From positions 2,995,375 through 3,059,374 of the forward strand of contig NC_087072.1 of the NCBI RefSeq assembly GCF_026151205.1: DNA of 64,000 nt. The letters are read 5' to 3'. Below are positions 258 to 59,504 of this stretch, piece by piece. Numbering within the stretch: position 1 is the first letter of the stretch; the number at the start of each line of letters is the position of its first letter. The DNA comes from Bolinopsis microptera. Lineage: Eukaryota > Ctenophora > Tentaculata > Lobata > Bolinopsidae. The notes beneath the pieces were generated by a model. That model was not told where the DNA came from, did not search any database, and saw only the letters and a list, made by a program, of their open reading frames with translations. The translations under genes and the position numbers were made by a program.

Positions 258-3200
258 ATCTACAATCTGATGATGTACGGGAAGTACTGGCAGTTTACCA
301 GAAGTGATGACTATCTGAACCTCCTGGAGCAGGAGAAACTGGGCAAGTCGCCAATATTCAAGCACATCACCAGCCCCAAGGATGGGAAAAGGAAGAATGC
401 GATCAACGAGAACGCGCATAATAGCCGCAACCGGAAATTTTTCAGCTTCTTCGGGATAAGAAAACGTGAGTACATGGTTACAGTTACTATGGTTATCAAC
501 CTCTTAGTGATTTGAATTTTATTTGCTATCGGAATTTAGGATCGGTATTTGGATTTACACCTGTTATCATTAAAAGGAATTACTCAAATGATTTGACCAT
601 AATCGCACCGCCTCGAGACCTTTCCAGTGCAATGATTTAACGAAATTAGTAATTTTTGTGATTGCAGTGCCCTGCAGAGCCATGCAGAGTGGCTCCTAAA
701 ATAATGCTCGACTTATTAATCAGATCATCATTAATTGTGGAGCTTCCCCATTCCATAATACTTTAGTGCTAGGGTACTACTGCTACTTGACAGTTTATCA
801 TGAAATGCCATTTTATTCCGACACGTAGACCCGGCAGCCCTACTACCGAGCTTACAACATAGTATTAAGATCATCTCTATGGATACAACTTCAAAACATG
901 ATTATGAAAGAACTGATTTAAATATCTTAGTAAATACTCGTACATATCTGTTAAAGTAGACTCAACTCTATGATGAGCGTTAGCTGACGTGGAGTATAAG
1001 ATTGACATGTCAGTAATATTTATCTTTAATCTTGAGTCCCCAACCCTATTATATAGTTCACCTCAAATAACACTATTCCAACCCCAGGTGAAGAAACAGA
1101 AGTGATCCAGAGTAACAAACACAACAACCACATAAACAACAACAACAACAGCAACAACAACAACAACAAGACCCATCACCATAACAACAACCACCATAAC
1201 AACAACCATCACCACCACCACCCGGTTACCAAGCACCAGGTGTTGTTGGAGATGCCCAACTGTACCCTGAGGAGAGCTTACTACAACGGTCAGGAGAGTG
1301 TTAAGTCTTGTGTGGAGCGAGCCCTCGTTAACACTGGTTAGTAGTGTTACTCATGTTAGGGAGGCAATGTGTATTGTCAGGAGATATTATCCCTGAAATG
1401 ATTTAGTGTGAAAATGTGAAGAAAAAAGTGTCTTCCTGCTGGACATCAACATTCGATTGAGATTAACTTGGTTCATTATTAAATATGGTTAGTAGACAAG
1501 GACTAATGTATGTTGCTATTTTAACTCTTAAAACCCCAGGAGTGAATCTGAATTGTTACCACATCTGCATGAAGAAGACGGGAGAAGTTATCGACATTCA
1601 GCGACCTGTTAACCAGTTCTCCAACATGACTCTCAGTTTCCTGAACACTCCTACTTTTCAGTAAGTACCTGATCTTTTGCCAGGAGTTACTCCTTTGCTA
1701 TTACACATCAGCTCTACTCAGAAGAATTATTCATATCTGTCCGAAATTAGGTCATCGTGTTCATGTTGGTGATAATACGATATCAAATTTGCTGAGACTT
1801 AACAAATGTTATAACTAAAGGAGAATTGATGCCATGATGATTATGATATTTTTCTTGGAGATGGATGTAGTCTAGATAAGTCATTTTTCCACCTTTGTTC
1901 TACCAATGTTCAAGTTGAAGCCGTGAATCATCAAGTAGACAGAGGACAATAACTCGATTGAGCACTCCATTTCAAGAATATCCAAACTGCACTATTTGTG
2001 ATTTTGACACACTGTCTTTCCACTCCTAAGTTTCTATTTAAAACACAAGTGTAACTTGTAAACTTGGAGTGTACTAATTCTAGTGTCCAGCTCTGGATTA
2101 GTTTGGAAGAGTATTTGAACTCTGAGCTGTTGATGTAATGTCGAGACTAAATGTACTGTATAAGGACTGGATTTGAGGTAAAAGCATGATCTAGCTCTGA
2201 GGTTTATGTTACAGTGGTCATGTTTTACAAGAATCAGTGTTGCTATGGTTTCAGCTGCGCAGTTAGTGCGGAGTCGACATCTCGGTGGCTCCGCCAGTCT
2301 ATCTGTCCTTTAGGTCACGCTTGCAAATATCAGTTAGGAAGTTAGGAATTATCTCATTATGGTAGAGGCGCTAACATTAAATCCGCGGACTATCACTTAC
2401 GTCTGCGTGCCGAATACACTATTTTAAACTATTACCGAACATACTATTACACTGTTCATACTTAACAGGGCAGGGGTTATACTTCTCCACTCAAAAACTT
2501 TAAAGCTCTTAAAGTTCCGATCAGAGTTTTGAACTGTAAGTTTAAAATGTTGCAAGCGATTAACTGTGACTTTGTTTCAGGATCTCAATGTCTAACAACA
2601 AGAAGTTCAAGTTCTGCACGTCCCACGGGAAGACTTTGAAAGACATTTGTAAGAGCGTACTCAGTGAAAACAGCATCGATCTTAGATCTATCATCTTATT
2701 TGAGGTAAACACAATTATTTGTGCATCTAGGGTAAAAATAAAACTGGCAGTTGATTGATTATTCTTCAGTCATAATTTATCTCCCCCCAACGGCCACCAC
2801 CACATTTACGAAACCCCCCCCCCCCCCCCCCATCTCTCTGCTCTGACCCCCCCCCCCCCCTCCATCTCTCTGCTCTGACCCCCCCTCCATCTCTCTGCTC
2901 TGACCCCCCCCCTCTATCTCTCTGCTCTGACCCCCCTCCATCTCTCTGCTCTGACCCCCCTCCATCTCTCTGCTCTGACCCCCCCCCCATCTCTCTGCTC
3001 TGACCCCCCCTCCATCTCTCTGCTCTGACCCCCCCCCTCCATCTCTCTGCTCTGACCCCCCTCCATCTCTCTGCTCTGACCCCCCTCCATCTCTCTGCTC
3101 TGACCCCCCCATCTCTCTGCTCTGACCCCCCCCATCTCTCTGCTCTGACCCCCCATCTCTCTGCTCTGGCCCCCCACCTCTCTGCTCTGACCCCCCCTCC

Positions 3201-4490
3201 CATCTCTCTGCTCTGATTCCCCCCCCCCCCCCCCTGCCTCGCAAACTCACCCCTCCCCCCTTACAGCGAGACAGCAGAAGTTACGTCAGACTTGACACTC
3301 AGAGCATCCTGGTAGCCAACAAGAACCTAGAAGTGAGGGATATCTCCCAGAGATCTACTTCTGTTCCCAGATTGGGCATGAGGAAGGTACCCAGCAAGAG
3401 CAATGTCAGGCGCAGGTATGTCTCCTTATGCTTAGCTTGAATTTTGTGAAGATTTAGAATTAAGATGGTCCTAGAATCTTCTTTAATTTCATGATTTAAG
3501 TTGAGACCAGGAATTGCAGATCCGCTTTTTGTGGGTGAAGATTGTAACAATATCTTGTTACAGCGTGGAAGTAAAAAACCCTCGTTGCAGTGTGACGGTA
3601 GGCTGCAGTGGAAGTCTGGAGAGTAACCTGGATCTGCTGAGCAGTGTTATGGAGAGCTCAGACGATGACGCCACCGACTTTAACGCTAACGGTGGTCAGC
3701 TCGTCAGATCTCAATCTGAACTAGGTAATTCAGTGATACATTAATTTGTTTTAAACTTGTAGTTACTGGATTATGTAAATGTTTTATAAGTTTCGTGAAG
3801 AAAAACAGAGGTATGAATAAAGTATTTCACTGACAACTTAACAAAACCAACTAATTCTGCCATCCGTACTTTCATCAGAGAATATTTTGAAAACCCCATA
3901 TAATTGTTCAGGACAATCACCAAATTACTTATATATATTTTAATAATAACGGCTGAGTATCTAAAGTTTGTATAAATTAACGGCTGTTTTATTTCAGAGT
4001 TTTTCGAGTTGCTGAACAGAGTCCAGTGTGACAGACTTGACAATCAGCGCTGCTCTCATCCTACTGTATTGAAGAACTTGTCCCTGGGAAGACGCAACGA
4101 CTCAGTCAAGGTTTCATTAGACCTTATTTAGTGTTCTTCTACCAGCCTGCTAATAACCTTCTCGTAATGATCAAACCTTTCAAATAATATCACCAGCTTT
4201 CATTTGAATATGCATGTTACATGCACTGGCTGTTTCCAATATTTAACTTATATAAAACTTACACTTACTTTCCTCAGACCTCAAAGAAGGGATTTCCGAG
4301 CCGTAAAACCAGCAAGACAGACTCTCCCTCGCCCAGCAACGTGACTCCCCCACCTAGCTGTCCGGAGCAAGTGTCGCCTCAGAACCCGGATATCCGGAGT
4401 CCCTCCGAACCCTCACTCTCAACCAAACATTCCGTTTCCAGTCATAGTCCTGGAAGGGGTGACTCCGAGGAAGATATTGATTACTGCTGA
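258..4490 (+). CDS. RGS12/14: RGS12/RGS14-like regulator of G-protein signalling, 3' part (8 exons)
   Basis: Exons read as 258–465, 1088–1336, 1540–1660, 2581–2704, 3267–3415, 3564–3724, 3998–4110 and 4278–4490, with matching phases and GT–AG borders; stop TGA at 4488. The first exon holds the end of an RGS domain (YGKYWQFTRSDDY) and a basic linker. An Asn/His-rich run comes next, then two Raf-like Ras-binding segments (from about 1255 to 1660 and 2581 to 3340), then a GoLoco motif in exon 3998–4110 (FFELLNRVQ followed by LDNQR, the Asp-Gln-Arg triad that contacts Galpha). The last exon is a Ser/Pro-rich tail. This RGS–RBD–RBD–GoLoco order is that of RGS12/RGS14/loco: a GTPase-activating protein and nucleotide-exchange inhibitor for Galpha-i/o that also binds Ras/Rap. 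The 5' exons lie left of the window; bases 1–257 are intron with nothing else seen. Confidence 0.9.
1103..1223 (+). repeat. Asn/His low-complexity coding tract
   Basis: AAC/CAC/CAT triplet-rich stretch inside the second RGS12/14 exon. It encodes runs of Asn and His (such as NNNNN and HHHHH) between the RGS and first Ras-binding segments. The frame stays open on both sides, so it is translated linker rather than intron. Confidence 0.8.
2811..3236. repeat. Minisatellite, 22–27 bp unit, about 16 copies
   Basis: Pyrimidine-rich tandem units with the core ATCTCTCTGCTCTGA separated by C runs of varying length. It fills most of the RGS intron between exons 2581–2704 and 3267–3415. The array ends about 30 bp before the 3' splice site and may serve as an extended polypyrimidine tract. 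Long minus-strand reading frames across it are repeat artefacts. Confidence 0.9.
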
Positions 4491-5534
4491 ACTACTCTCG
4501 TCATCACGTGATATCTCGTCTTATACTGTGTGTGTCGTCACGCTGAAAATCACGCGTTACTTATGTGACGTCACGCTGAAAATCCCGCGTTACTTATGTG
4601 ACGTCACGCTGAAAATAATGCGATTATTGTCGCAGATTCAGGATAACGTATTGATCACGTAAAAGCGAATCCATAGAGACCAGACAATATTATTTTGTAC
4701 AGAGGAAGATATCACAAGTAATGCGATACGTCTTATCAAACTGTTAGTGATCGCAAGGGTTCGTGACGGTATCATTCATGTCACTACTTGTGACCTCAGT
4801 ACGTGTAGTATCTATAAAACTTTAGGATCAGGACATCTTCATTCCAAGTTCCGATGATCTTTGACAGTGAGCTTACAGTTACTCATTTTGGTCGACTAGA
4901 AGAAAATGCGTCAGCGTTTCTTTGTAACGCAGACAAGCGTTAGTTAAGTAAACTTTACAACCATTTCTGTTGTGATAATTGCTTTGTGGAAACTCTTGAA
5001 CAATTTAATTAGCTAACCTCTGTTAATTGAGCGGCTAATTAATTAGAAGTTGAACTAATTAAAATAATTAGTCTTTAATTAATTCGATATTTGTGTTTAA
5101 CAAGAGACTCGTTCCCTCTTAAATTTAACGTATTTGTTTATAATTATATCAACTGAATATAGTTTGTTGAATTTCAAGGTAAATGCCGCCTGGCCAGTAT
5201 AATTATTAATTTTAAATAAAGAAGAATAAAAAAGAAATTCGATACTTATCACTTTATCAATCATACTTTTTCCCGACATCATGATAAATTTGTACAATAA
5301 AATGTATAGCTTGTACGATCGTTTTTATCATGAAAAAACTCAAGGATGTAAAAAATGTCTAGTAAATTATTTAAAATTTGTTAAAAACAGTAAATTATTT
5401 TCAGCCTTTTCATTTACTTCATGTCGCTTATTTGTATTCTTATTCAGTGTAATGTTAAATATTTCATTCAAGTATTTGACTTTCATGGATAACTGAATAA
5501 ATTGTTTTCATCATTTCTTTGATTATAACAATCT
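4491..5534. other. RGS12/14 3' flank, no gene seen
   Basis: Likely 3' UTR, then AT-rich spacer. At 4539–4620 a roughly 36-bp unit is repeated about two and a half times, and each junction carries the palindrome TGACGTCA (a CRE/ATF core). AATAAA-type sequences occur near 5215. Open frames here are short and without recognisable domains. Confidence 0.5.
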
Positions 5535-5686
5535 AATTGTAGTTTCTGAATTATATTAAAGTTTTGTTAAGATCATGAAGAAAAACAACGGTATGACGGA
5601 ATAAAATACAATCATATTTCTGACTAAAGTATTTCACCGTCAACTGAAAACCAAACCAACTAATTCTGCCACCCGTACTTTGTTAA
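5535..5686 (+). repeat. Duplicated piece of RGS12/14 intron 6
   Basis: Clearly similar to 3755–3882 in the same orientation. Both contain the shared words GAAGAAAAACA, AAAGTATTTCAC and CCAACTAATTCTGCCA followed by CCGTACTTT. The copy has a roughly 25-bp internal insertion. It ends inside the esterase 3' end, and the matching continuation of the RGS segment reappears at about 9708. Confidence 0.75.
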
Positions 5687-7585
5687 ACTGAGGTGGGCTA
5701 AGTAGTGGCAAACCAGTTGTTGTGGCTCAGTCTCCGTTATCTTAGAGATCTGTGGGCTTCTCTCGAATTCCATGGATGTAGCAGGGAAGGGATTCCATCC
5801 ATGTTCCACATACCTGCTCCATGCCAAGTTCTTCAACATACTATGCAGGTGCGCTGCAAACTGATGCTCGGTCGGAGTCAGTGGTTTTATTATAGTTTTG
5901 TAAAGTCCAAATAGGAACCATGCATCATACCCGTGACTTGCTCTCAAACCTTCAGAGTGATGTGTAATGTACAGTCTGTATACTTCATGGTTCCGGCTGA
6001 GGGACATGGCTCCGACTACTTCGTTAGTGGGACATGTAGCCCGCATATCAGTGATAAGAAGACTGTAGGCATCTTTAGCCATTTTCCCAGGATAGAACTG
6101 CTTGTACACCATGTTGGGTATATCATTTCTGTGTGTAAGCTTTAGTAAGTTGGCTGTCATATGTATATGAGCGTCGTGGTGAGTCGGGAAATCCTTGACA
6201 GTTAGCCAATTTTCTTCGGCGGTATTGGACACTATAATTTTAATAGGTGACTTCGGAGCGAATGTAGCATCTTTCAGGTTTCTTGGCGATACTGTAACTA
6301 CTACAGGATCAATCATGATGTACCCAAAAGCTTCACCTTTAACACCATGAATCATTGGGAAACTGAAATAAGCAGACCCTTGAGCACCTTGTTTGGGAGT
6401 GTTAAACCTATTAGCATCTAGGTGCATCAAGCAGTGTTTCCGTGCCGCAGGGCTGGGCTGATTACACCCCAGGTAGTTGGAAACATAGTCTCGCTGAAAG
6501 AGGTCCCCTACAACGTGCGAGGCTCTCATCTCAGGTGCCGGACTCATGGAGACAGCTGCATGGAACTTGTTGTTGGCCATAGGAGAGCAAGTAAGGGCCA
6601 GAACGGAGGTGCCTCCCGCGCTCGTCCCAGCAATGGTGACGGAGTTCGGATCTCCTCCAAAGGCAGCTATGTTCTCTTGTACCCAATCCAGAGCTGCGAC
6701 CATATCTCTGATACCATTGTTAGCGTACACTCCTGCACGCTCATCCCACAACTCACTTACAGAGCTGAACCCCAGGAACCCAAGTCGGTAATTAATGTTG
6801 ACTGTTACAGCGTCTACTTGGTGGGTGGTCTCCGAGTCAAAAGAGTACCCTGGCATATTCCCAGAGCCTGACATAAGAGCTCCACCGTGAATCCAAACAA
6901 TAACGGGTCGGGAGCCTTGTAGGTCGGGAGATCGTACGTGCAAGAAGAGACAATCCTCAGTTCCGTTACCATGACCATCCACACAGGACATGTAGGTGTC
7001 ATCAGTTGCCATCACCTTGGTGGACTTAGGGACTGTGTGCCGCTGTGGCGGTCTAAATCTTAGGTTCCCTGTTGGAGCTTTCCCGTAGCGTATCTTGTGG
7101 AACTCGTGTATTTGCGTTGTTCCATCTTCCAACGTTACTGTCCTGCCTTGGATAATGCCAGCAGTGTTCGTCACAACCTGAGGAGCTTCTTGTTGGGCAT
7201 CACATAATTTACAAGTTGCAGGACATTCGTAGTTAGCAACAGGGTTGTGGAGGCAATGTCCATGAGCCAGGAAGTTAGTACACCCTACTACACTGGGCTT
7301 GTCCTGACACTCACAGAACCCACAGGTCGCCTTGCAGTTGTTAGGCATGGTGAGGTCAGTGAGACATTGTCCATGACGTTTGAACCCAACACAAGCATCC
7401 TTCTGCAAGGCATCCGTACACGTGCATATCCCACAAGTTAGCGGACAAACGTTTCTGAAATTTGCATCATTACAAAGTCCCTGGGTACCCTTCAAAGGAC
7501 AAGAGACGTGTAAATCCTGACACACGTGACCTTGGGCTGAAGCTATGAGAACAAATATGATCGTTAAGAATACCAACATGTTCAA
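5660..7585 (-). CDS. Secreted type-B carboxylesterase with three N-terminal ShKT domains
   Basis: One uninterrupted 641-codon frame. Residues 1–19 are a signal peptide. Three six-cysteine ShKT modules follow: Cys22–54, Cys56–91 and Cys93–128. The alpha/beta-hydrolase esterase domain runs from about residue 140 to the end. Visible landmarks are the oxyanion loop HGGAL (233–237), nucleophile elbow GTSAGG with Ser322 (usual consensus GESAGG), acidic residue in TAEEN (Glu457/458), and His551 in ASHGYD, so the triad looks intact. The family hydrolyses ester bonds; substrate is unknown. ShKT modules are common on secreted enzymes of cnidarians and other invertebrates and probably mediate binding. 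The gene is intronless next to intron-rich genes. A TATAAAA sits about 30 bp upstream of the ATG. Confidence 0.88.
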   Translation of the reverse strand: MNMLVFLTIIFVLIASAQGHVCQDLHVSCPLKGTQGLCNDANFRNVCPLTCGICTCTDALQKDACVGFKRHGQCLTDLTMPNNCKATCGFCECQDKPSVVGCTNFLAHGHCLHNPVANYECPATCKLCDAQQEAPQVVTNTAGIIQGRTVTLEDGTTQIHEFHKIRYGKAPTGNLRFRPPQRHTVPKSTKVMATDDTYMSCVDGHGNGTEDCLFLHVRSPDLQGSRPVIVWIHGGALMSGSGNMPGYSFDSETTHQVDAVTVNINYRLGFLGFSSVSELWDERAGVYANNGIRDMVAALDWVQENIAAFGGDPNSVTIAGTSAGGTSVLALTCSPMANNKFHAAVSMSPAPEMRASHVVGDLFQRDYVSNYLGCNQPSPAARKHCLMHLDANRFNTPKQGAQGSAYFSFPMIHGVKGEAFGYIMIDPVVVTVSPRNLKDATFAPKSPIKIIVSNTAEENWLTVKDFPTHHDAHIHMTANLLKLTHRNDIPNMVYKQFYPGKMAKDAYSLLITDMRATCPTNEVVGAMSLSRNHEVYRLYITHHSEGLRASHGYDAWFLFGLYKTIIKPLTPTEHQFAAHLHSMLKNLAWSRYVEHGWNPFPATSMEFERSPQISKITETEPQQLVCHYLAHLSLTKYGWQN

Positions 7586-29100: not shown

Positions 29101-32100
29101 ACTGTCCCGACACTCCTTGCACGTGCTGCCCCCGGCGCGATCTTGATAGGATCCCTTGGCACATTGAGCACAATTAATTTGCCCAGTCTGGTCTTGGTAA
29201 GATCCTGCTTCACATTTTGTACAGTCGGCGCTACCTGGATCTGTTGAGAATGTACCAGGCTCACAGAGAGCGCATAAGTTAGAGCCAGGACCGGCAGCAC
29301 TTCCTGGAGAGCACTCAGTGCAGTTAACAGCTCCAGGCTCTGAAGAGAAGGAACCAGCAGGACAGTCGTCACAGGAGATAGCACCTGCATCTGCAGCATG
29401 TGTGCCAGCAGAGCAAGCCCCACAGGCTAGAGCACCTACATCGTCTGAAAAATAGCCTGGAGCACAAGGATCACACATAGCTGATCCGGCATCTTTAGCA
29501 GCTGATCCTGCGGCACAAGGATCACACGTAGCTGATCCGGCATCTTTAGCAGCTGATCCTGCGGCACAAGGATCACACGTTGCTGATCCGGCATCTTTAG
29601 CAGCTGATCCTGCGGCACAAGGATCACACATAGCTGATCCCGCATCTTTAGCAGCTGATCCTGCGGCACAAGGATCACACGTTGCTGATCCGGCATCTTT
29701 AGCAGCTGATCCTGCGGCACAAGGATCACACGTAGCTGATCCGGCATCTTTAGCGGCAGAGCCTGGAGGACATAGGGTACAGTTTGCAGAGCCAGCATCA
29801 GAAGCAGCACTACCGGCAGCACACAGATCACATATCTCAGAGGCGGCCTCAGAAGAGAAGGATCCAGCTGAGCATGCAGAGCAGGCTGATGAACCAGACT
29901 TATCAGCAAAAGATCCAGGAGAGCAAGCGTCACACTCAGTAGAACCGTTGTTTCCAGCAGAATAACCAGGTAAACAGAGAGTGCAGTTTACAGAGCCAGC
30001 AGCAGAAGAAATACTACCGGCAGCACACAGATCACAGATCACAGAGGCGGACTCGGATGAGAAGGATCCAGCTAAGCATGCAGAGCAGGCTGATGAACCA
30101 GACTTATCAGCAAAATTTCCAGGAGAGCAAGCATCACATACAGTGGAACCGTTATTTCCAGCAGAATAACCAGGCTCACAAGAGTCACACTCAACTGATC
30201 CGGTGCTGTTAACAGCAGACCCTGGTGAGCAGAGTGTGCAGCCTTTGGAGCCAGCTTTGTCAGCATAGCTACCAGCAGCACAAAGAGTACAGGTCTCAGA
30301 CCCTTTACCAACAGAGAAGGATCCAGCAGCACAGTCCGCACAAGAAGTCTGGTTACTAAGAGGGTTAGATGTTCCAGCATCACATTTTGTGCACTTTGTA
30401 GCATTGACACTTGAACTAAAGGTTCCTGGAGGACAGGCAACACAGGAACCATCCTTCTTTTGTCTCTCCCCTGGAACACAGGTCGGGTCATCTGTGGGGA
30501 TTTTCAGTTCCTTCCAGACCTTGTTGATGAGTTCCTCCCAATACGATGCTGGGTTAATTTCATCCTCTCTAGTGATGGACACCGCTCCTGCTAGCAGACA
30601 GAGCACACTCAAGCTACAGAAGAGGACCAGGGATCTCATACCTTCAGATAATAGGAGAGTTAGAACTTCTATAACAATTTACACAGACAAGTATTGAAAG
30701 GAAAATCGAGGAACATAACATATACAAATTACAAAATTGAACAAGGACTTATGTCACATAAGGGTCTTATGCTCTTATGTCACATATGGGTGACATAGCC
30801 ATGCAAGTCAGAATAATAAATGTAACAAATGTGTTAGTGAATTTAGGTAAAGCTCGCTGAAGAGATTCATCATATTATCATGTAAGCGGTAACGACAAGC
30901 AGAGAAGTCAAGTGGCAGGACGGTCAAGCTTAGAGAAATTTAACAGTTCATAAAATTATATGACAAACGCAACCACGAGACCGCTGACCGCAGTGAAGTA
31001 TGAGCTCTAAAAATACACCTTATCAGACTCAGTGAAGAGAGTCACAAGATCACCGAGCTGTAATAGAATATCCTACTTTATAAACAGCTCACTCTCTAGA
31101 ATCACGTACTGTGGGTCTGGCACCCTTAGTACCACTGCGGTACCTTCTAATACAATCAACTTATCAACTCTCAGCTATCACAAAATAAGGAACTTAAAGA
31201 ATTTAGCTGCATGATCTCATGTGATGTTTAAAGTAACATGTAAAACATTTATATCGAGCATGGTGATGTCAAGGTAGTTAATACAGGCCTGTGGCCTCTG
31301 GTCGGACCCTGGTCCTACTCAAAACACAAATCCGGATAGAAAAACGGTTTCTCTAAAACTTTGTAAAGTATAAGTTTTCTGAAAGAAGGAGGCTGGTAAA
31401 AGGCCAGAGTATATGATATAGTGTAGATTATGACAGTGATTCAAACTTTAATCGCTATTATATCCTCCTCGACTTTTAATATCATTATAACAATTGCAAT
31501 TGTCTAATAGTGTGTTATTTATTTACTAATAAAACAATGAAGTGGATTATAATATTATTAAAACAATTCAATTGAAATCATTATGATAAAGATAGCATCT
31601 GGGAATAAATTAAAATTCGGTACCAATCATTTTGCAAATCAAAGATATAAAAAAAGGACGCAATAAAAAATTAGGTTGATAACTCCATCCAGTGGGTCGC
31701 GGGTACATATCACGTGATATTATTGTCATGGCAACCATAAAATAGAGCTGTCTCTAAGCTACAGTATCAACTCAATCTATCCACAGTATAGGACAATACT
31801 GACTCTCAATGCTTAAAATAAGTCCTGACTCTTAATGCTCGAAATAAGGTATGTCGGCAGTACATTGGGGCACGTCACAGTAGTCCCACCTAACCCAAGA
31901 GCTGTTGGAGTAGCACCAGGGACCTTTAGTAGTGACCTGTGGGTCTGGGTTCCTGCAGTAGTTGTGTTTCCCCAGTCCGTAGATCTCCTTATTTTTAGAG
32001 GTTGGGTGGAAGTCTGAGTGGTGGTGAGGATAGTTGCTGTTCCAACTCTGGCACGCTATTTTCACTCCAGCCTCTGTCAATGAGTTCACATTTCCCCTGT

Positions 32101-35100: not shown

Positions 35101-38100
35101 AACAATTGCGAAATAAAGAAATAAAGGAAGGTTACAATATTAGTATCTAGATAATTATTGAATAATCCCAATATTACTTTTAAAATAAAATGTTAAATAC
35201 AGTACTAGAGATCAAAGATAAATTGATAGATCAAAGATAATGAAATTCGGGAAATATTGATTCTTGATAATAAAATATATCGCATTAAAAAGTCATTAAG
35301 CTGATAACGATGGCCTCAGATAAAATATAGCGAGCACACAAAATCTTACTGATTATCTAAAAATAATCCACTGAGTTCGAGATTTGATTAACCCTATTAT
35401 ATATATAATACAGAGAAATGAAATCACTACGAGATTGATTTACATGTCCGGTTGAATATGATTTCTTGGCCCGAATCAATTTCAGACTAAGATGCTACCA
35501 AATATGAAAGTAAAGTTAATATGTAAAGTTTCGTCCCTAGAGTTTGGAGATCTAGCATGCACATCCATAAAGCAAACGTGACATTGATGCAAGCAAGCAA
35601 AATTGCAGTATTATAAAAGATGTATCACAAGACAGTTATTTGAATGAGTTAACCTTTCTATCACCTGACTTCCTGTTATCACTACAACTTTAGATTCGAT
35701 TAAAACCAGAGAACCTCTCATAATATACCGTGACAGAAGGGACACAGTTAACAATTATCTAAAAACCTCGTACGAACTACGGTCCAGTTATATTTAGAAC
35801 CACGTACGTTAAGTCTGCATAAAATATAAAATATAGTTGGAATAAATGAGATGACAAAGAATAGACCTGTAGTTTCATTGCTTCATTAAGCAATATTGAC
35901 AGTTGACCCTCGACCTCTTGCTAGAAACATTTTTTGCCCAAAATATTTGCGCTAGATATCTAATCAGGTAAAACTTCAGTTAAAACTTCCGGAGAAAGGT
36001 ACAGATCAAATACTCAGGTAGGCTAGGCTAGAGTGCAATTACTAAGAAATAAAAACCAAATTCTAAGAAACCACAAACCTCCCATAGTATGAAAGAAGAA
36101 CTCAGTAGGAGTTAGACCGGAGTAGAAACTGTTAGCCACGAACCCCTTAGCATCAGGAATCACACTGTTTCGAGGGAAGTGGGGCAAGGACCGAGCTTCA
36201 AACCCATCTGGGGTCCGTTTACCGTTTATAGCTTGCTGTCCAACACATGCTATCATCTGGTGGAGGGGGAGGTAAGGGTTAAATGTGTTTTACAATGTGT
36301 TTTACAATGTGTTTTACAATGTGTTTTACAATGTGGTTTTATTTTTACAATAACGCTGTTCAAAAGGTGGGGTTTTCTTCTCAAACAATGAAGTTAAATT
36401 ACAAGTATTGCAAGTACCTGCGAAATGTTGATGTTGCTACCCTTACTCCCACACAGAGCCATGATCATGGGGGCGTTTGTTTTATCTAACTCTGACAAAC
36501 ACGCTTTACCAGCATGCTCTCGTATCACCTGTACAAGTTAATTATCAGCACAGTACTTACAAATGAGGCAATGCAAGTTCATTATTAGCACAGTACTTAC
36601 AAATGAGGCAATACAAGTTCATTATTAGCACAGTACTTACAAATGAGGCAATACAAGTTCATTATTAGCACAGTACTTACAAATGAGGCAATACAAGTTC
36701 ATTATTAGCACAGTACTTACAAATGAGGCAATACAAGTTCATTATTAGCACAGTACTTACAAATGAGGCAATACAAGTTCATTATTAGCACAGTACTTAC
36801 AAATGAGGCAATACAAGTTCATTATTAGCACAGTACTTACAAATGAGGCAATACAAGTTCATTATTAGCACAGTACTTACAAATGAGGCAATACAAGTTC
36901 ATTATTAGCACAGTACTTACAAATGAGGCAATACAAGTTCATTATTAGCACAGTTCTTCAGTTAAGGTATTACAGAATATGAGGTAGATTGAGACGGTCA
37001 CACGAATATCTCCGAAATATACCACAACCAATAGTACTCACAGACGATCACACGAATATCTCCGAAATATACCACAACCAATAGTACTCACAGACGATCA
37101 CACGAATATCTCCGAAATATACCACAACCAATAGTACTCACAGACGATCACACGAATATCTCCGAAATATACCACAACCAATAGTACTCACAGACGATCA
37201 CACGAATATCTCCGAAATATACCACAACCAATAGTACTCACAGACGCTCACACGAATATCTCCGAAATATACCACAACCAATAGTACTCACACGAATATC
37301 TCCGAAATATACCACAACCAATAGTACTCACAGATAGTTCCCTGAGGATGACAGCCTCCAGTGTCTCTGATGCTGTGCACCCAGGCTGTGTTTCCAGTTT
37401 CCCCAGTTTAAAGTCCTCAATGTAACCGTCACACGCTGCGTAGCCCTCCTCTAGGAGACGCTGTTTAGCCTCGATCAGACCCTGTCCTGGTGTAACGTCT
37501 CCTATACCTATGCTGAACCTGGTCAGTATTATTATATCTTACTTATTATACTTTGGGTAGGAACAGTAAAGTGTATAGTAGTTATATTGAGTAGCTGATA
37601 TGATCGTTTAGATAGTGATCAGTATCTTACACTTTCAGTGAGATATTGAGTTCCTTCAAGACAAGTCATGGTCTTACGATTTTCTAGACGATCAATATAA
37701 ACGCTAATCATACAATCTTGATGTATCCTAACTTACAGCCATGAGCCATCATCTTACTCAATTTTTAGAAATATGTAATTCTGATAAGCTGTACAGCAAG
37801 ACGAACCCTCTATGAGATAAGAAAGTGGGTATGAGTCTAGCTAGACGTGACATAGCATCAGCACTAGCGTCAGGCCCGTAGTCCCTGAGGAGGATGTAGA
37901 ATATGTTGGACTTGCTGCCTCCCCCCAGTAAGGCCTTGTCCAGTGCTCCTGCCAGCAACTCACTGTTCTGGAAAGGTTCGGCATGAGAGCAGAATTATAG
38001 CAGTAGTTGGGTAGTAAGTTACTATTATATTTAAATGGGCATTTTCGAAGCTATTTATAAGAAATAAAAGTTTTTTTCCAGTCGGTAAAGTAAAAAGGAG

Positions 38101-43845: not shown

Positions 43846-46800
43846 TTAGATATCTCTAATAACTCCGACACCAGCGCTAAACCGATGAGTATCCATGCTG
43901 GCCATCTCGCTCCATTCGCCTGCGCGCGGATCATAGCACTCCACCGTTCTCAGCGCTGCGCTACCGTCGTGTCCTCCCACAGCGAATATGCGCGCGCCGA
44001 GCGTGCAGACTCCAACACCACCACGTGCCTGACGCATCGACTTTATCTCCTTCCACACGTCAGCGTTGGGGTCGTACATCTGAAACAATCGGGGCTTTGT
44101 TAGAACTGCATCAAATAACAATTGTTATAGCGGTTCTCTAACAGGTGGTACTCTATTCTTTACTACATTTGCTGCGACACACAGTACACACAGTACACAC
44201 AGTACACACAGTACACACAGTACACACAGTACACACAGTACACACAGTACACACAGTACACACAGTACACACAGTACACACAGTACACACAGTACACACA
44301 GTACACACAGTACACACAGTACACACAGTACACACAGTACATTTGCTGCGACTGTGTCCAGCTTCTAAAATAAACTTGGTGGCTATTATTCTATTTCAAT
44401 ACGACAATACTTGGTGGGGGTAGCAGCTGTAATATAGTTATTATTATATTTATGTCACTTGATACGTGGGACACACAACTCAATACGAGATGTGTAATAA
44501 TTGTAACTTGGCGCTGGGCCAGGGAGACAGATAACAGGCTATTAGTAATAGTTGTAGTTCTAGTGTTCAATAACTGCAGTGTAAGTAACAGTTACAGTAG
44601 GTCATTGTGGGTTAAACAGGGAAATGGAGCTAACGATCTGTTAGCTCAGCCCGGGAATAATGGTGTACAGTGTACCAATGCAAATGGCTATTCTATACTA
44701 TGTACTATAGAGTGGTACCATGGTAGTATAGAATAACCTTGTACAATATGGTCTGCGAAATAATACGTATGTATTGACTATTTACGTATTATTATGGTAT
44801 CACGAGGACTGTGCTTGACGTACAAGTAACTAATTATTTAATTTACTAATTGTATTAGTGTAATTATAACAGGCTCACGGCAACTGTAAATAGGAGATCA
44901 CCATTCAATCATCCTTATTTACACAATATTCAAGATATTCAACTTAATTAGTAATATTAAAGAAAGGGCAGTTGACTCACCTCGACTGTATTAAGATAGG
45001 ATCTACCGTCGTGTCCGCCCACAGCGTACAAGTTACTGTTAAGTGTAGCTACTCCCACTCCGACCCGTGACACAGCCATCGGTGCTACTTTACTCCACTG
45101 GGAGGTGATTAGAGGTAATTAGGGGTGATTAGAGGTAATTAGTTGTTGTGTAAGACTATGTGTCATGTCTTATATTGATAATTATAGTTAATATTTAATA
45201 ATAGTTAATAGTGCTATGTTTACAGTATGCACTGAAGGGGTATCCTAGGAAGTTTTATAATTACTTTGAGCTGGATATAAGCCAAGATGAAATATTTTAA
45301 GAGAACATTGTACAGTGGAACTTCTATTCGCACTAGTACATCAAATAATGGACCTGTAAGATTGCCGATGCTAGTGTATACTGTATGTATTGGCAATACC
45401 AACTAGTATTGTATTATAAGAGGGGCTACAATCACCGATTACGCGCGCATTATAATATGGTGGTCCACTCTGTAGCAGAATATTCAGCTCTAGAATGTGG
45501 GCTTATATAAGCTCCCAAACGTCAAAACCAGCACACTCAAATATGTGATAACGCAGTAAATCCATGAATATTGAATATGATACGTTGAATATTGCATAAC
45601 ATACATAGTACAATACTATAACTTATAATACAGCACTTTTATAGACAGTAGCAATTACTGTACTACCAACCTTGGCCATGTGAGGGTCAAACATCTCCAC
45701 TGAGTTGAGTCTAGAAGAGCGGTCATCACCGCCCGCTACAAAGAGGAAGTTATGTAGAGTTCCACACCCTGCTCCGCCACGGTGAGTTAGCATTGAGGCT
45801 ACCTGGAGGTGAGTTAGTGTTGAGGTTAATAACAGGGTACATGAGAGTGGACTTAGTATTTGGAAGTATCTAGATCAGTAAGTAACAACTAAAACGATAA
45901 GATAAAAGGTCGTTACCAAATCATACAACAGATCTCTGTTTGATATATATGATAGAAAATATAGGGAAACTCTATTCATCCAATATTATGACAAAAGAAA
46001 TTTAATAGTACATTCTGCCTATAATGTACTTTATTTGCACCTTATGGTCACTAAATCCTGGTAAATAGAGCTGAATTACCTTAGTCCAGCAGTTACTCTG
46101 AGGGTCGTACCGTTCCACAGATTTGAGGGAGCTAGCACCATCGTACCCACCGAGAGCGTACATTGGACCACCAAGCACTCCAAGTGCAAGCGAGCGCCGC
46201 GGAGTGTTCAGAGGTGCTATTGCTACCCAGCTGTTCAGGATTGTGTCGTATCTCTCACCTGTACTGGAATGAGGAGGGAAGTTCAGTTTCATCCTTACAC
46301 TTACACCCAGTACACACAGTACACACAGTACACACAGTACACACAGTACACCCAATACACACAGTACACACAGTACACACAGTACACCCAGTACACACAG
46401 TACACACAGTACACACAGTACACCCAGTACACACAGTACACACAGTACACACAGTACACACAGTACACACAGTACACCCAATACACACAGTACACACAGT
46501 ACACACAGTACACACAGTACACACAGTACACACAGTACACCCAGTACACACAGTACACACTGCACAGTACATATAGTACACACAGTACACCCAATACACA
46601 CAGTACACACAGTACACACAGTACACACAGTACACACATTACATATAGTACACACAGTACACCCAATACACACAGTACACACAGTACACCCAATACACAC
46701 AGTACACACAGTACACCCAGTACACACAGTACACCCAATACACACAGTACACACAGTACACCCAATACACACAGTACACACAGTACACACAGTACACACA

Positions 46801-49800
46801 GTACACACATTACATATAGTACACACAGTACACCCAATACACCCAGTACACACAGTACACACAGTACACACAGTACACACAGTACACCCAATACACACAG
46901 TACACACAGTACACACAGTACACACAGTACACCCAATACACACAGTACACACAGTACACACAGTACACACAGTACACACAGTACACACAGTACACCCAGT
47001 ACACACAGTACACACTGCACAGTACATATAGTACACACAGTACACCCAATACACACAGTACACACAGTACACACAGTACACACAGTACACACATTACATA
47101 TAGTACACACAGTACACCCAATACACACAGTACACACAGTACACCCAATACACACAGTACACACAGTACACCCAGTACACACAGTACACCCAATACACAC
47201 AGTACACACAGTACACACAGTACACACAGTACACACAGTACACACAGTACACCCAATACACACAGTACACACAGTACACCCAATACACACAGTACACACA
47301 GTACACACAGTACACCCAATACACACAGTACACACAGTACACACAGTACACACAGTACACACAGTACACACAGTACACACAGTACACCCAATACACACAG
47401 TACACACAGTACACACAGTACACACAGTACACCCAATACACACAGTACACACGTACTGTGTGTACTGTGTGTATTGGGTACACACAGTACACCCAATACA
47501 CACAGTACACACAGTACACACAGTACACAGTTTCAAGATATTTATATCTTTTTCAAGATATTTATATCTTTTTCAAGATATTTATATCTATCTTCTTTTA
47601 TAAAAAACCTCTTAATCTGTAGTATATAAGGATATTGTAGAACTTACTTGAGATAAGAGGTACCGTTGTAGCCACCAATAGCGTACAAATGCTGATCCAG
47701 CGTAGCGACGCCGACACGCCCACGCTTAGAACTCATTGGGGTGCTGAGATCCCAGCTGTTAGACCGGAGATCATACACCTCCACACTTTCAACAGCAGCA
47801 GCGTCCCAACTACTGTCAATACCTCCACACACGTACAACTGTCCTGTTAGATCAGGGGAGTACGGCTTCAAACTGCAGTTATTTATCACATGTGGTGAAA
47901 AATAAATTAAATCTTTGAAAAATATCACGACATCTAGATGTTTTCACAAATTTAAACTTTAACATACCACAGGTACTGAGACGGGGTTGGAAGCGCTCCT
48001 GTGACATGACATTAGTAGCCATCTTGGGACAGAGATGATAGTTCTTAGCCTCATCTACTAGGTCCCTACAAGCCAAGTTCTTCCTTATAAACGGAGTTTG
48101 CTCCACCTGCACAATGTTTAACGTTATTATTTACTTATATAATATATATAATACTTAATACTTATATATATAACTTAATTCGAACAATTGGAACAAATCA
48201 AATTGGCGGGCAAACAATCCGTTTCATGATATGTATAAAACAATACCAATCATCATGTCAGTGCCAAATAGAATAATGAATTGTAGCGTTATGACATGTT
48301 GCTCCTTTATAAAATAATTATTATCGATCATGAAACATTTTCAAAATATCAAAATTTACAAAATGTCCAAAAAAACTTCTAAACAAAAAAACTTTTGGAC
48401 ATTTTGTAAATTTTGATAATTTTGAAATGATGATTATCAAATTACGCACAAGGACAGTGTAAGTATTACCTCATACAATAGAAATGGGGTATTACCTTGG
48501 ACATGAGGTATTCAGGAGAGAGTTGAGGTAATCGCACGTGGTTGAGAAGTCTAGGACAAGCGACCTGTCTCTCAGAAGGAGTAATATCACTGTCACTGCT
48601 AATGTAGCTGACCCATCTCTGAACCGCTTCAAACACCTGCTCCTCACTTTTTATTATTATCTCGTCTCTACACAAGATGTCTGACACCTGGTTAGAGGGG
48701 AGCAGGGGGAACTCCTCACCCTCCACTACGTCCATAAAGTGGGTATCCACAAACTTGAGGGAAGCTAACTTGAGGTCCTGGCAGGAGTGGATCTCTGCAA
48801 AGTTGAGGATACCCAGTGCGTTAGTGGGGTGGAGTTGGGACTCCAGGAACGAGCAACACACCTTCATAGCCGCTGAAATGAACATCTCTTTTAGTAGAAG
48901 CAGTGTTAGTATTAGTAATATTACTTATGCTATGTACTTCTATTTTAGTAACTTTCACTTAAATAAGTTAACTCTCAGTTTAACGATTATTTTTTTAAAT
49001 GTACATTAAGTTTTTGAGAATAACAAACCAGTTTGTAAAGATAAAGATCATAACAAAAATAAAATTTACAGTGAATCTGGAGGAGATTGGACGCTTGAAA
49101 AAGAGACTGGACGTTTGTTACATTGACATCAAGGTATCCTGTGTACACAAAGTCAACAAGAGCTTTCAGTGCTGAAAACTCCAACTCTTTTATCGTTACA
49201 CACGTCTGCGGAATAAGTTTTGCTAGTATTAAATAAGTAGATAAGGATATATCACATGGTAGTGTTATTCAATAAGTAGCTGATCAGTGGTTTAAAACAC
49301 GACAAATACCTAAATAAATTGCTTCACATTCTGGCCGGCCACGTGACAATGTTCCACATACCTCAACAGACTCCTTCATGTCGTTAGTGAACATAGCACA
49401 GAAGTAAGGGCTGCACGCACTCAGAACTACCCTGTGAGCAGGCAGCTTCTCACCCTCAGCCTGACAAAGAGGGAGTTAGCTTACACTCTACACAGTATGT
49501 TCTACTAAATGACCCTGTTTATCAATTTGCTGATCATGTTCGAGGCGGGGGTTCCAGAAAATAGGCTTATAATTCTAATCATATTTAAATATGATTTAAA
49601 TGTATCCAAGTTTCATGAAAACATACCTCAAGCCAGATATCACACAATTTTTCTTGTTGCCTGAGGTCCTCCATATTGCTGAGCAGTGACGATGCGTGTG
49701 GCACATCAGGACACCCCAAACTTCCTTGGGAGGAACTTGTCAACATTCCCAGTCCGGAGCGACAGAGTCTCCCAAACGAGCCCAGGCTCAGGTTGTCTGG

Positions 49801-57200: not shown

Positions 57201-59504
57201 GTACTTAAAATCCTGCGCAATCTCATCGTGTGTGTTCTGATTAACCATCCTCTCCACAATCTTAGCAGGTGTCCCTATCCTCTGAATCTCGTCTCCCTGG
57301 TTCAGCTCCGGTACTGAACTCTTGCCTCTCTTCTCCACCTCCTTGTCACGTGACTTTTGTTTCTCTTTCTGTCTCTCTTGCCGATCCATTTCTTCTTGGT
57401 ATGCGTCAAATATTTCCCACTGGTTGGCTGTTGCTGAGAAGTTTGTGCGGGGAGGTGGTTCTGTAGTTGTGCCACGTTCCTGGTCGAGAGTTTAGTGTAA
57501 AATGAGGAGCAAGAGAAGACAGAATATTACAGATTTATTGTGCGACTTAAGGTACCACCTTGAAACCATTTAAACAATTCTGCAACTAAAGAACAAATAG
57601 ATCTTAAGGCTGAGCGTGAGTTTGAGACGAAATTAGCTTTCATTTTAGACTTCACGTCTCCCGAAATAAAACTGCGAACAAAGTGAAACAAGGAACTAAG
57701 TAAACTGTAAAACCAAATTTTCGTCACGCATTGGACTTTATCAAGGTTACACTGAAAAGGGGGGGTTTGATCTCTGAACCAGAGAGTGTGGTAATTGGGT
57801 TAGGAAAGTAAACATACATGCGACAAAGATCAGGGTTACCATTAGGAAGAAAATTTCAGCAAAATTTGTAGAAAAGGGGTGTACACATCCATGCGAGAAA
57901 AAATCGGGTTACCAATAAGAAAAGATCTGTACATAGGAGCTTCAAGACGACCTATTAGAGGTCGAATCTACGAACACGAGTCTAGCTTCCGACTCAACAA
58001 CAGCAGGACCACACTAGGATACCACGCTGCTGAACACCGCAGAGCAGACGACCCACACTACACTCCCATATCGGGAAAAAGAGACTTAGCAAAATTCTTC
58101 GAAAACTACGAATTTAGCATATCAGAACAATGTAAGGATACCTTAGATACCTTTATAAGAGAAGGCTTAGCAATAGAACACACTAAACCGAAAATCAATA
58201 ACATGTGTGGAAACGGTTTTACAGACTAATTTCTAGTACACTTTTACTACGCTGATCTGAGGGTTGTAAACTTTCTCTGTTGTGATTTTTTCTTATTGGT
58301 AACCCGATTTTTTCTCGCATGGATGTGTACACCCCTTTTCTACAAATTTTGCTGAAATTTTCTTCCTAATGGTAACCCTGATCTTTGTCGCATGTATGTT
58401 TACTTTCCTAACCCAATTACCACACTCTCTGGTTCAGAGATCAAACCCCCCCTTTTCAGTGTAACCTTGATAAAGTCCAATGCGTGACGAAAATTTGGTT
58501 TTACAGTTTACTTAGTTCCTTGTTTCACTTTGTTCGCAGTTTTATTTCGGGAGACGTGAAGTCTAAAATGAAAGCTAAATTCGCAACTAAAGAAGGAAAA
58601 TGTCTGACCCTGTAAGGATTGTTGAAGGTTTGTGAAGCTCGTTCACTGTAGTTGAATTGGTTTCTCAGAGCAGATTCTGGCTTCACCGCTGCAAGGACCT
58701 CCTTAGGAGCATCCCTTTCCGCCTCTTCTCCCTCCAGCTCCAGTTCCAGTTCCTCTTCTCCTGGTATCTCTATTTCATTGAGGTTCTGCTCCACACCTGT
58801 CCCAGAGTCTGACAGTCCTAGCCGTGTAAGCTGCCGTCGTCCCTCGTCACTCTCCTTATGTAACATGTTACCGTCCATTGAGAAGTGGATAGCTAGCTGG
58901 TCAACCCCCATCTTCATCTTGTAACAACGCTCCTGAGGAAGGGAAGTTTGTGACACTTGCGATCTTAATGATTGTTAGTTGCACCATGAAAACTTTAATG
59001 GATAATAATGTTTAATTTGTAAGGGCTCTTACTTTGAAACTGTAGCGAACAATATTGTTGGGGGCGTGAGGATTGTTGGCAGTCAGGATTCTAGTAAACT
59101 CCTCCTTCAGCTCCTCTGGAGACAGATCTAGCTGGTCGTCTGGCTTCATCAGGATTTTAGGCTGAAAGAGAAATGGCTCACTACTTGATTTTTGAACAGA
59201 AGCAAGGTCGGGTACTGTAATATTGAACTGATTGTAACATCAGGTCTCACTAACATAACAACAATCACAGTATCACACATTGCAAGTGAGCTCTGTTGAA
59301 AATCGGAGATTTTACAAGGTTTTATTTAGATGTTAGAATTGTGAAAGAATGCACGTGTGTATGTCCGTCGGTTATTTTTTTGTAGAGTGTCTGAATGTTT
59401 GAAACCTGGAGTAGGTTAGAAGAAGACCCTATAGAGGAGCCGCTTGTTCCTTGAGTTGGGGTTCTAGAAATCAACCTGTTTTGGGCCTTCACTGCCCGGG
59501 CCAT
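54207..59504 (-). CDS. DNAI1: Axonemal dynein intermediate chain 1 (nine exons)
   Basis: Exons: 59406–59504, 59033–59161, 58609–58932, 56802–57479, 56521–56695, 56054–56282, 55387–55541, 55049–55179 and 54207–54299. Phases join to about 670 aa (human about 699). Strong family text: [96 protein letters not shown] and the terminal [13 protein letters not shown]. The C-terminal half is a WD40 propeller. DNAI1 (Chlamydomonas IC78) anchors outer-arm dynein to the doublet microtubule in motile cilia. The exact start is uncertain: ATGs at 59504, 59528 and 59543 are in frame, and ATGTCAGCAATGGAA before GTAAGT at about 59556–59570 could be a separate first exon. A mobile element sits in the intron before exon 4. 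Confidence 0.93.
54418..54832. repeat. 12-bp tandem array (GTGAGTAAAGYG-type)
   Basis: About 34 units alternating GTGAGTAAAGTG, GTGAGCAAAGTG and similar in the last DNAI1 intron. It stays open in several frames on both strands (for example VSKVVSKA), but no frame is supported as a gene. Unit variants occur in a higher-order pattern. Confidence 0.9.
57582..58594 (+). mobile_element. Inverted-repeat element with GIY-YIG-like ORF (Penelope-like remnant?)
   Basis: Two essentially identical 297-bp arms, 57628–57924 and 58287–58583, face each other around a unique 362-bp centre. A 12-bp direct repeat GCAACTAAAGAA lies at 57582–57593 and 58583–58594 and may be the target-site duplication. An extra 34 bp separates the left copy from the left arm. 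The centre encodes a GIY-YIG-like endonuclease segment. Long terminal repeats that can be inverted, plus a GIY-YIG nuclease, are hallmarks of Penelope-like retroelements; no reverse transcriptase is present here. It lies in a DNAI1 intron, 15–26 bp from the exon 3 donor. Arm identity implies recent insertion or gene conversion. Confidence 0.7.
57891..58229 (+). CDS. GIY-YIG endonuclease-like ORF of the inverted-repeat element
   Basis: 113 codons from ATG 57891, which lies inside the left arm, to TAA 58229. The text [18 protein letters not shown] resembles the YIG…R…H core of Penelope-type GIY-YIG nucleases. It is followed by a GYHAAEHRR block and the end EHTKPKINN (family consensus E…P.LN). 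The canonical first GIY half is not evident because upstream residues come from the repeat arm, so activity is doubtful. The frame has no internal stop. Confidence 0.6.
   Translation: MREKIGLPIRKDLYIGASRRPIRGRIYEHESSFRLNNSRTTLGYHAAEHRRADDPHYTPISGKRDLAKFFENYEFSISEQCKDTLDTFIREGLAIEHTKPKINNMCGNGFTD

Follow-up and report, generated by a model that had tools for sequence, protein, structure and literature searches.

What kind of element is formed by two near-identical sequences that face each other around a lone nuclease-like reading frame, and how did its arms come to be inverted? The question is raised by a locus in a 64,000-nt stretch of the Bolinopsis microptera genome (contig NC_087072.1), here called the window. 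The inverted repeat is a recently inserted, broken, 5'-truncated copy of a Penelope-like retrotransposon (PLE), and the element consists of two 5'-truncated PLE copies placed head to head. Very probably it is a dead insertion built from two cDNAs, one per cut strand, which were started 34 nt apart on one RNA and then joined head to head.

Table 1. Features of the inverted PLE insertion in the window and of the intron that holds it.
Feature	Position	Strand	Basis
Host intron, phase 0, GT..AG, 1129 bp (128 bp without the insertion)	57480..58608	-	Splice sites read from sequence
Target-site duplication, left copy, 12 bp, GCAACTAAAGAA	57582..57593	.	Direct repeat; flank control between insertions
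34-nt tail, 3' end of the shorter inverted PLE copy	57594..57627	-	Extension recurs at other tailed ends
Shorter PLE cDNA copy, pLTR and tail, 5'-truncated, inverted	57594..57927	-	Comparison with the L012 unit
Antisense pLTR codons fused in frame to the nuclease remnant, including a chance ATG at 57891	57846..57923	+	Sequence comparison
Head-to-head junction, 5-nt overlap AGATC	57923..57927	.	Junction analysis
Longer PLE cDNA copy, 3' end of GIY-YIG ORF and pLTR, 5'-truncated, tail-less	57923..58582	+	Genome matches
Truncated GIY-YIG nuclease remnant, DLYIG to stop, GIY strand lost	57924..58229	+	Identity to L012; Pfam
Inr-like TTTTCAGTG stretch, A at 58458; family 5' truncation hot spot, probable RNA start	58453..58472	+	Arm-start counts
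PLE ORF sense start ATGAAAGCTAAATTC at pLTR end, cut off at the tail-less start site	58568..58582	+	Sequence
Target-site duplication, right copy, GCAACTAAAGAA	58583..58594	.	Direct repeat

As described in an earlier note on this DNA, the facing arms are nearly identical, a 12-bp direct repeat flanks the whole, and one side alone carries an extension of 34 bp (Table 1). The arms (57628-57936 and 58275-58583) are 98% complementary across 309 nt; their homologous stretch has 1 substitution per 295 nt, and a local alignment gives 2 differences in 299 nt, one of them adjoining the junction. Read in the sense direction, the 34-nt tail corresponds to the opening codons of the PLE ORF that follow MKAKF. 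All copies were placed on the unit found at locus L012, positions on which are given as U coordinates. On this scale the left copy is inverted and runs from U2904 to the pLTR end and on into the tail, while the right copy starts at U2543 and stops at the tail-less end. Not one of the 115 further matches listed in the genome, with 40 of 58 candidates scored, spans the internal junction, and the structure therefore looks private to this insertion. The insertion sits within what the splice sites in the sequence indicate to be an intron of a host gene on the opposite strand. The exon downstream of this intron has weak WD40 matches, below the cut-off, and the exon upstream has no WD40 match.

The ORF across the centre (57846-58229) had been likened to the C-terminal GIY-YIG nuclease of PLEs, and this proved correct: from DLYIG on, its 101 residues are identical to the C-terminus of the 1006-residue frame of L012. 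A profile search returned the GIY-YIG family of Pfam, but at E 9e-4 and 19.9 bits the match is sub-threshold, the curated cut-off being 22.6. The strand matching GIY, which in relatives reads HYVY, is absent; the junction lies directly before YIG, so that the GIY half of the nuclease has been lost. The window copy is thus a truncated member, in which the complete RT-EN ORF is reduced to its last 101 residues. AlphaFold2, run on the single sequence of the ORF, gave a mean pLDDT of 35. The suggestion that one arm supplies the start codon stands in so far as an ATG at 57891 lies within the arm, but the codons there are antisense pLTR, and the sequence indicates that this ATG is a fusion artefact of the junction and that the arm provides no genuine start.

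In the window's own genome (264.65 Mb) the whole element has at least 116 matching stretches, its own included, with 40 of 58 candidates scored. Regions from the genome search were examined in sets of twenty, then twelve, then fifteen. Three of the loci contain long frames, measured from stop to stop: L012 (1006 residues), L014 (1008) and L010 (849). Each has RT-like motifs upstream of the same GIY-YIG nuclease, in one ORF. The nuclease matches Pfam GIY-YIG over profile positions 2-77 or 2-78 of 78 in all three frames, with E values of 0.0024-0.0092, all below the curated cut-off. The RT-like motifs were picked out by eye in frame P0001, at 576 (DVENMYP), 639 (QGIGTGSHSSG), 677 (YVDD) and 738-753 (YQKPT..YLHYDSH), and we take them to resemble those of PLE RTs. 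No RT profile match was obtained for the long frames in Pfam, PDB sequences, NCBIfam, PHROGs or PADLOC, and for this reason our assignment of the family to the PLEs, which the sequences indicate with high certainty, falls short of complete certainty. The nuclease remnant, the target duplication and the 34-nt extension all agree with the original view of a recent mobile element of the Penelope class.

The arrangement of these full-size copies is also informative. The genome search recommended in the earlier note, for full-length copies with RT between inverted arms, is answered by L010: an inverted copy precedes its ORF, and the RT-like region and the nuclease thus lie between inverted ends. 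L012 and L014 have instead a direct 5'-truncated copy immediately before the unit that carries the frame of 1006-1008 residues, a partial tandem, and this is the pLTR arrangement described for PLEs. At L014, the pLTR is broken by approximately 930 bp of other sequence (5480-6409), with U2993-3014 present on both sides.

A hammerhead ribozyme at the junction of pLTR and ORF has been reported in PLEs; its presence is not treated here as required. Rfam searches of the window stretch and nine loci found no hammerhead. The hammerhead core pattern, CTGANGA..GAAA, is absent from both strands of the window element and has two matches inside the L012 ORF. A tail-less end determined by a hammerhead was considered, since by eye the site falls in a GAGACG/CGTCTC inverted pair, but it was rejected because no hammerhead core was found there.

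To count ends genome-wide, a 26-nt pattern at the pLTR end was used with up to 3 mismatches. It found 74 pLTR ends (reversed-pattern control, 0), which the script classed as 28 tailed, 43 tail-less and 3 internal to tandem copies; the plus end of L043 was scored tail-less, yet the tail is present behind a small duplication. Fifty of the 74 ends fall in 26 two-ended insertions, and 21 represent single-ended insertions. L044 and L055 each have one end without the pattern, which was added by hand from BLAST; the tails of these two insertions and of L043 were classed by hand, and those of the remaining 23 by script. In every one of the 26 two-ended insertions, one end is tailed and the other tail-less. 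L055 and L029 have the same flank, and counting the two once leaves 25 out of 25 independent insertions with a single tail, which at best odds would have a probability of 3e-8 were the ends independent. Among the 21 single-ended insertions, 4 are tailed and 17 tail-less (4 and 15 after removal of L048, a duplicate of L023, and L053, a duplicate of L052), and exact target repeats of at least 9 nt occur at 9 of the 21 in the raw count.

The tail is not bound to one kind of arm. In 15 of the 26 two-ended insertions the arms differ by more than 13 nt. Eight of these have the tail on the shorter arm (L001, L010, L017, L025, L043, L044, L047 and L050), the class to which the window insertion belongs, and seven on the longer (L013, L015, L016, L022, L034, L035 and L036). 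Neither arm can therefore in general be a copy of the other, and we conclude that both ends began as separate starts of reverse transcription. Twelve insertions are mirror images with arms of about 30-130 nt, made up of the pLTR end and one tail and no other content (L029, L030, L031, L032, L033, L034, L035, L036, L045, L046, L047 and L050). Taken alone, they would pass for MITE or foldback elements.

All 26 two-ended insertions are flanked by target duplications, of 9-19 nt, with 19 of them at 11-13 nt. Duplications were sought with up to 2 mismatches and scored as length minus 3 per mismatch. True pairs score 9-18; of 650 false flank pairs, 553 score 0 and 648 no more than 8, the two that reach 9 being those formed by the duplicates L029 and L055. 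Outward of the duplication the host sequence shows an A-rich preference and then T, the same on both sides, and the tailed and tail-less sides are indistinguishable (a difference as large as the observed one arises in 1356 of 2000 label swaps). An asymmetric target, with a stronger CAAA motif beyond the tail-less end, was tried as a candidate and abandoned when a leave-one-out test with label swaps gave no difference between sides.

The two arms of an insertion were compared in 17 of the 26 two-ended insertions (L025, L033, L043-L047, L050 and L055 were left out), and the nine with a shorter arm above 200 nt were treated as informative. In seven of the nine (L001, L009, L010, L011, L015, L016 and L017) each arm has its sibling as nearest relative. 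Siblings are identical in L009, L011 and L016, and identical pairs include 1742/1742, 884/884 and 362/362 nt; the next relative of the L009 arms, which agree across 1742 nt, is 6 substitutions and 2 indels away. In the window insertion the sibling arm beats the L011 arms by one indel only. The sibling is nearest for only one arm of L013 and for neither arm of L022. For all eight short-armed insertions compared, the sibling is not listed as nearest and falls at ranks 10-38 amid many ties, and 4 substitutions separate the siblings in L030 and again in L031; arms this short carry too few marks for templates to be told apart. Arms could also have come to look like products of one template through gene conversion between them. 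Given that siblings are alike and that each insertion has a tailed and a tail-less start, the simplest reading is that a single RNA was copied from two starts.

The points at which arms are cut off bear on where the RNA begins. Among the 74 arms that extend to the pLTR end, 26 have their start in U3072-3091 (duplicates included), whereas 2000 random placements of 65 points beyond U2300 never put more than 10 in any 20 nt. This interval holds TTTTCAGTG, which resembles the initiator (Inr) consensus. From the hot spot together with this stretch we infer run-off at the 5' end of the RNA, and many of the short insertions would be such run-off products. The arms of other insertions begin at many different points. 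At the head-to-head junctions an overlap of at least 2 nt is seen in 15 of 23 cases against about 16% by chance, a count which BLAST ends may inflate; L033, whose long overlap is part of a palindrome, was left out along with L025 and L044, and L055 was kept. L034 and L035 have the same junction, U3080/U3124 with a 7-nt overlap, at two places with dissimilar flanks, perhaps through short homology and an RNA 5' end that was used more than once.

On the basis of these observations we hypothesise the following course of events. The element protein, acting as a symmetric pair, would cut an A/T-rich site on both strands, with a stagger of about 12 nt and 3' overhangs. Each 3' end would then prime reverse transcription on the same RNA, one from the tail site, which lies within the beginning of the ORF, and the other from the tail-less site 34 nt upstream. 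The two cDNAs would halt at different points and be joined head to head by end repair, often at a few matching bases, and this joining would yield inverted arms, a single-copy centre and the flanking duplication. Such a scheme must treat the 21 insertions with a single pLTR end, 17 of them tail-less, as half-products. Against it count the identification of RT by eye only and a GIY-YIG match below the curated cut-off, as well as the sibling misses of L022 and L013, the narrow margin in the window, the ranks of the short arms, and near-palindromic junctions that fit self-priming.

This last possibility, in which the 3' end of a cDNA folds back and primes a copy of that cDNA as the inverted arm, is the rival with most in its favour, and we nevertheless consider it unlikely. 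Junctions off the hot spot are near-palindromic in L009, L011, L028, L045 and L046, the identical arms noted above speak for it, and self-priming on an antisense template has been proposed for PLEs in the part of Arkhipova (2013; PMC3846280) drawn on here. Self-copying, however, predicts outer ends that are the same, and in all 26 two-ended insertions a tailed end is paired with a tail-less one. In the eight unequal cases with a tailed short arm, the window included, the shorter arm has 34 nt that are missing from the outer end of the longer arm, and it is these tailed short arms that lead us to disfavour snap-back. The longer copy of L010 does hold the 34 tail letters, internally, at the start of its ORF. 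For some insertions the near-palindromic junctions keep self-priming alive.

The other alternatives are much less probable. The earlier note had proposed a non-autonomous but nuclease-bearing derivative or a distinct family. A separate family with fixed inverted arms would account for the clear arms, the ORF and the target duplication; with a junction private among the matches listed, arm starts at many points in other insertions and a nuclease truncated to the loss of its GIY strand, this proposal was not upheld and we regard it as very unlikely. That two PLEs inserted by chance at the same site in opposite orientation would give the head-to-head arrangement, yet there are 26 such structures, each bracketed on the outside by a single target duplication, and in seven of nine informative cases the siblings are each other's nearest relatives, so that coincidence is highly improbable. 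A DDE-type or foldback DNA transposon with long terminal inverted repeats, which the long arms and the nearly constant length of the target duplication might recall, has a negligible chance of being correct: arm length differs between insertions, the outer ends are regularly unequal, single-ended 5'-truncated copies exist, and relatives carry GIY-YIG and RT-like motifs. The traits of a TIR DNA transposon, fixed terminal repeats in all copies and a DDE transposase, were not seen, arm starts being variable; a Pfam scan of the three long frames gave no transposase.

Two cDNAs made from the two strands of one break, and mutually inverted, are familiar from twin priming in LINE-1, where one inverted 5' piece is joined inside the element. 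The present insertions are unlike that case in that the element's 3' end forms both of the outer ends, with 34 nt between the two defined sites. Among PLEs, the family resembles the Penelope/Poseidon type (Penelope of Drosophila virilis, PAc of Anolis) in its single ORF ending in GIY-YIG, in pLTRs derived from partial tandems and in a tail of 30-40 nt inside the start of the ORF, as these are given in the portion of Frangieh et al. (2024; PMC11167929) used here, and in its 5' truncation, as given in part of PMC8969392. It differs in that no hammerhead was detected by Rfam or core pattern, in that its RT is beyond the reach of Pfam, and in that the window copy is a nuclease fragment only. According to the same portion of PMC11167929, the purified PLE protein cuts and extends both target strands and is predicted to dimerise, internal initiation occurs at two sites that bound the tail, and later steps are still to be validated. 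The two-cDNA reading agrees with this biochemistry, obtained for the Anolis element in vitro.

Pen2a_Av of Adineta vaga and its relatives, as described in part of PMC3846280, are alike in having an inverted pLTR on the 5' side, an optional 31-bp tail on one inverted pLTR, palindromes at head-to-head junctions, and target duplications of 9 and 10 bp. The difference is that 26 insertions can be counted here, with one tail each and target duplications mostly of 11-13 bp; our two-cDNA reading also departs from the self-priming model of that source. Inverted pLTRs, one-sided tails, palindromic junctions and target duplications have thus all been described already, in the parts of PMC11167929 and PMC3846280 consulted; what this genome adds is one more member family, together with a test of end pairing based on counts. 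As far as those parts go, the origin of inverted PLE pLTRs and of the tail at one end is unsettled between the two. Counted insertions, several of them young, separate the models by one tail on either arm, by alike siblings and by a symmetric target.

A more general rule could equally well prove right or wrong. It holds that a paired enzyme is obliged to reverse-transcribe one RNA twice, once per cut strand and from sites 34 nt apart, so that exactly one tail is left per two-ended insertion. The inverted ends of PLEs would then be a direct product, and MITE-like mirror repeats of approximately 110-300 bp would come from the same reaction, many as run-offs at the 5' end of the RNA. A retrotransposon can leave behind lone short inverted repeats, a warning against taking them for DNA transposons.

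Some other repeats were noted. At L017, similar frames of 328 and 332 residues (SVINAGKF..., FICPKCEAHF) lie on either side of the element, at 349-1332 and 3142-4137, and a similar stretch occurs in L021, a multicopy gene beside PLE insertions. Elsewhere in the window, repeats with periods of 51, 153 and 204 bp, all multiples of 3, at 29454-30174 are possibly a repetitive coding stretch, and two minisatellites, of 40 bp (10.7 copies) and 50 bp (7.1 copies), adjoin at 36532-37334. There are also two long 9-bp arrays, one of ACACACAGT at 44177-44341 (about 18 copies) and one of TACACACAG at 46302-47529 (about 138 copies).
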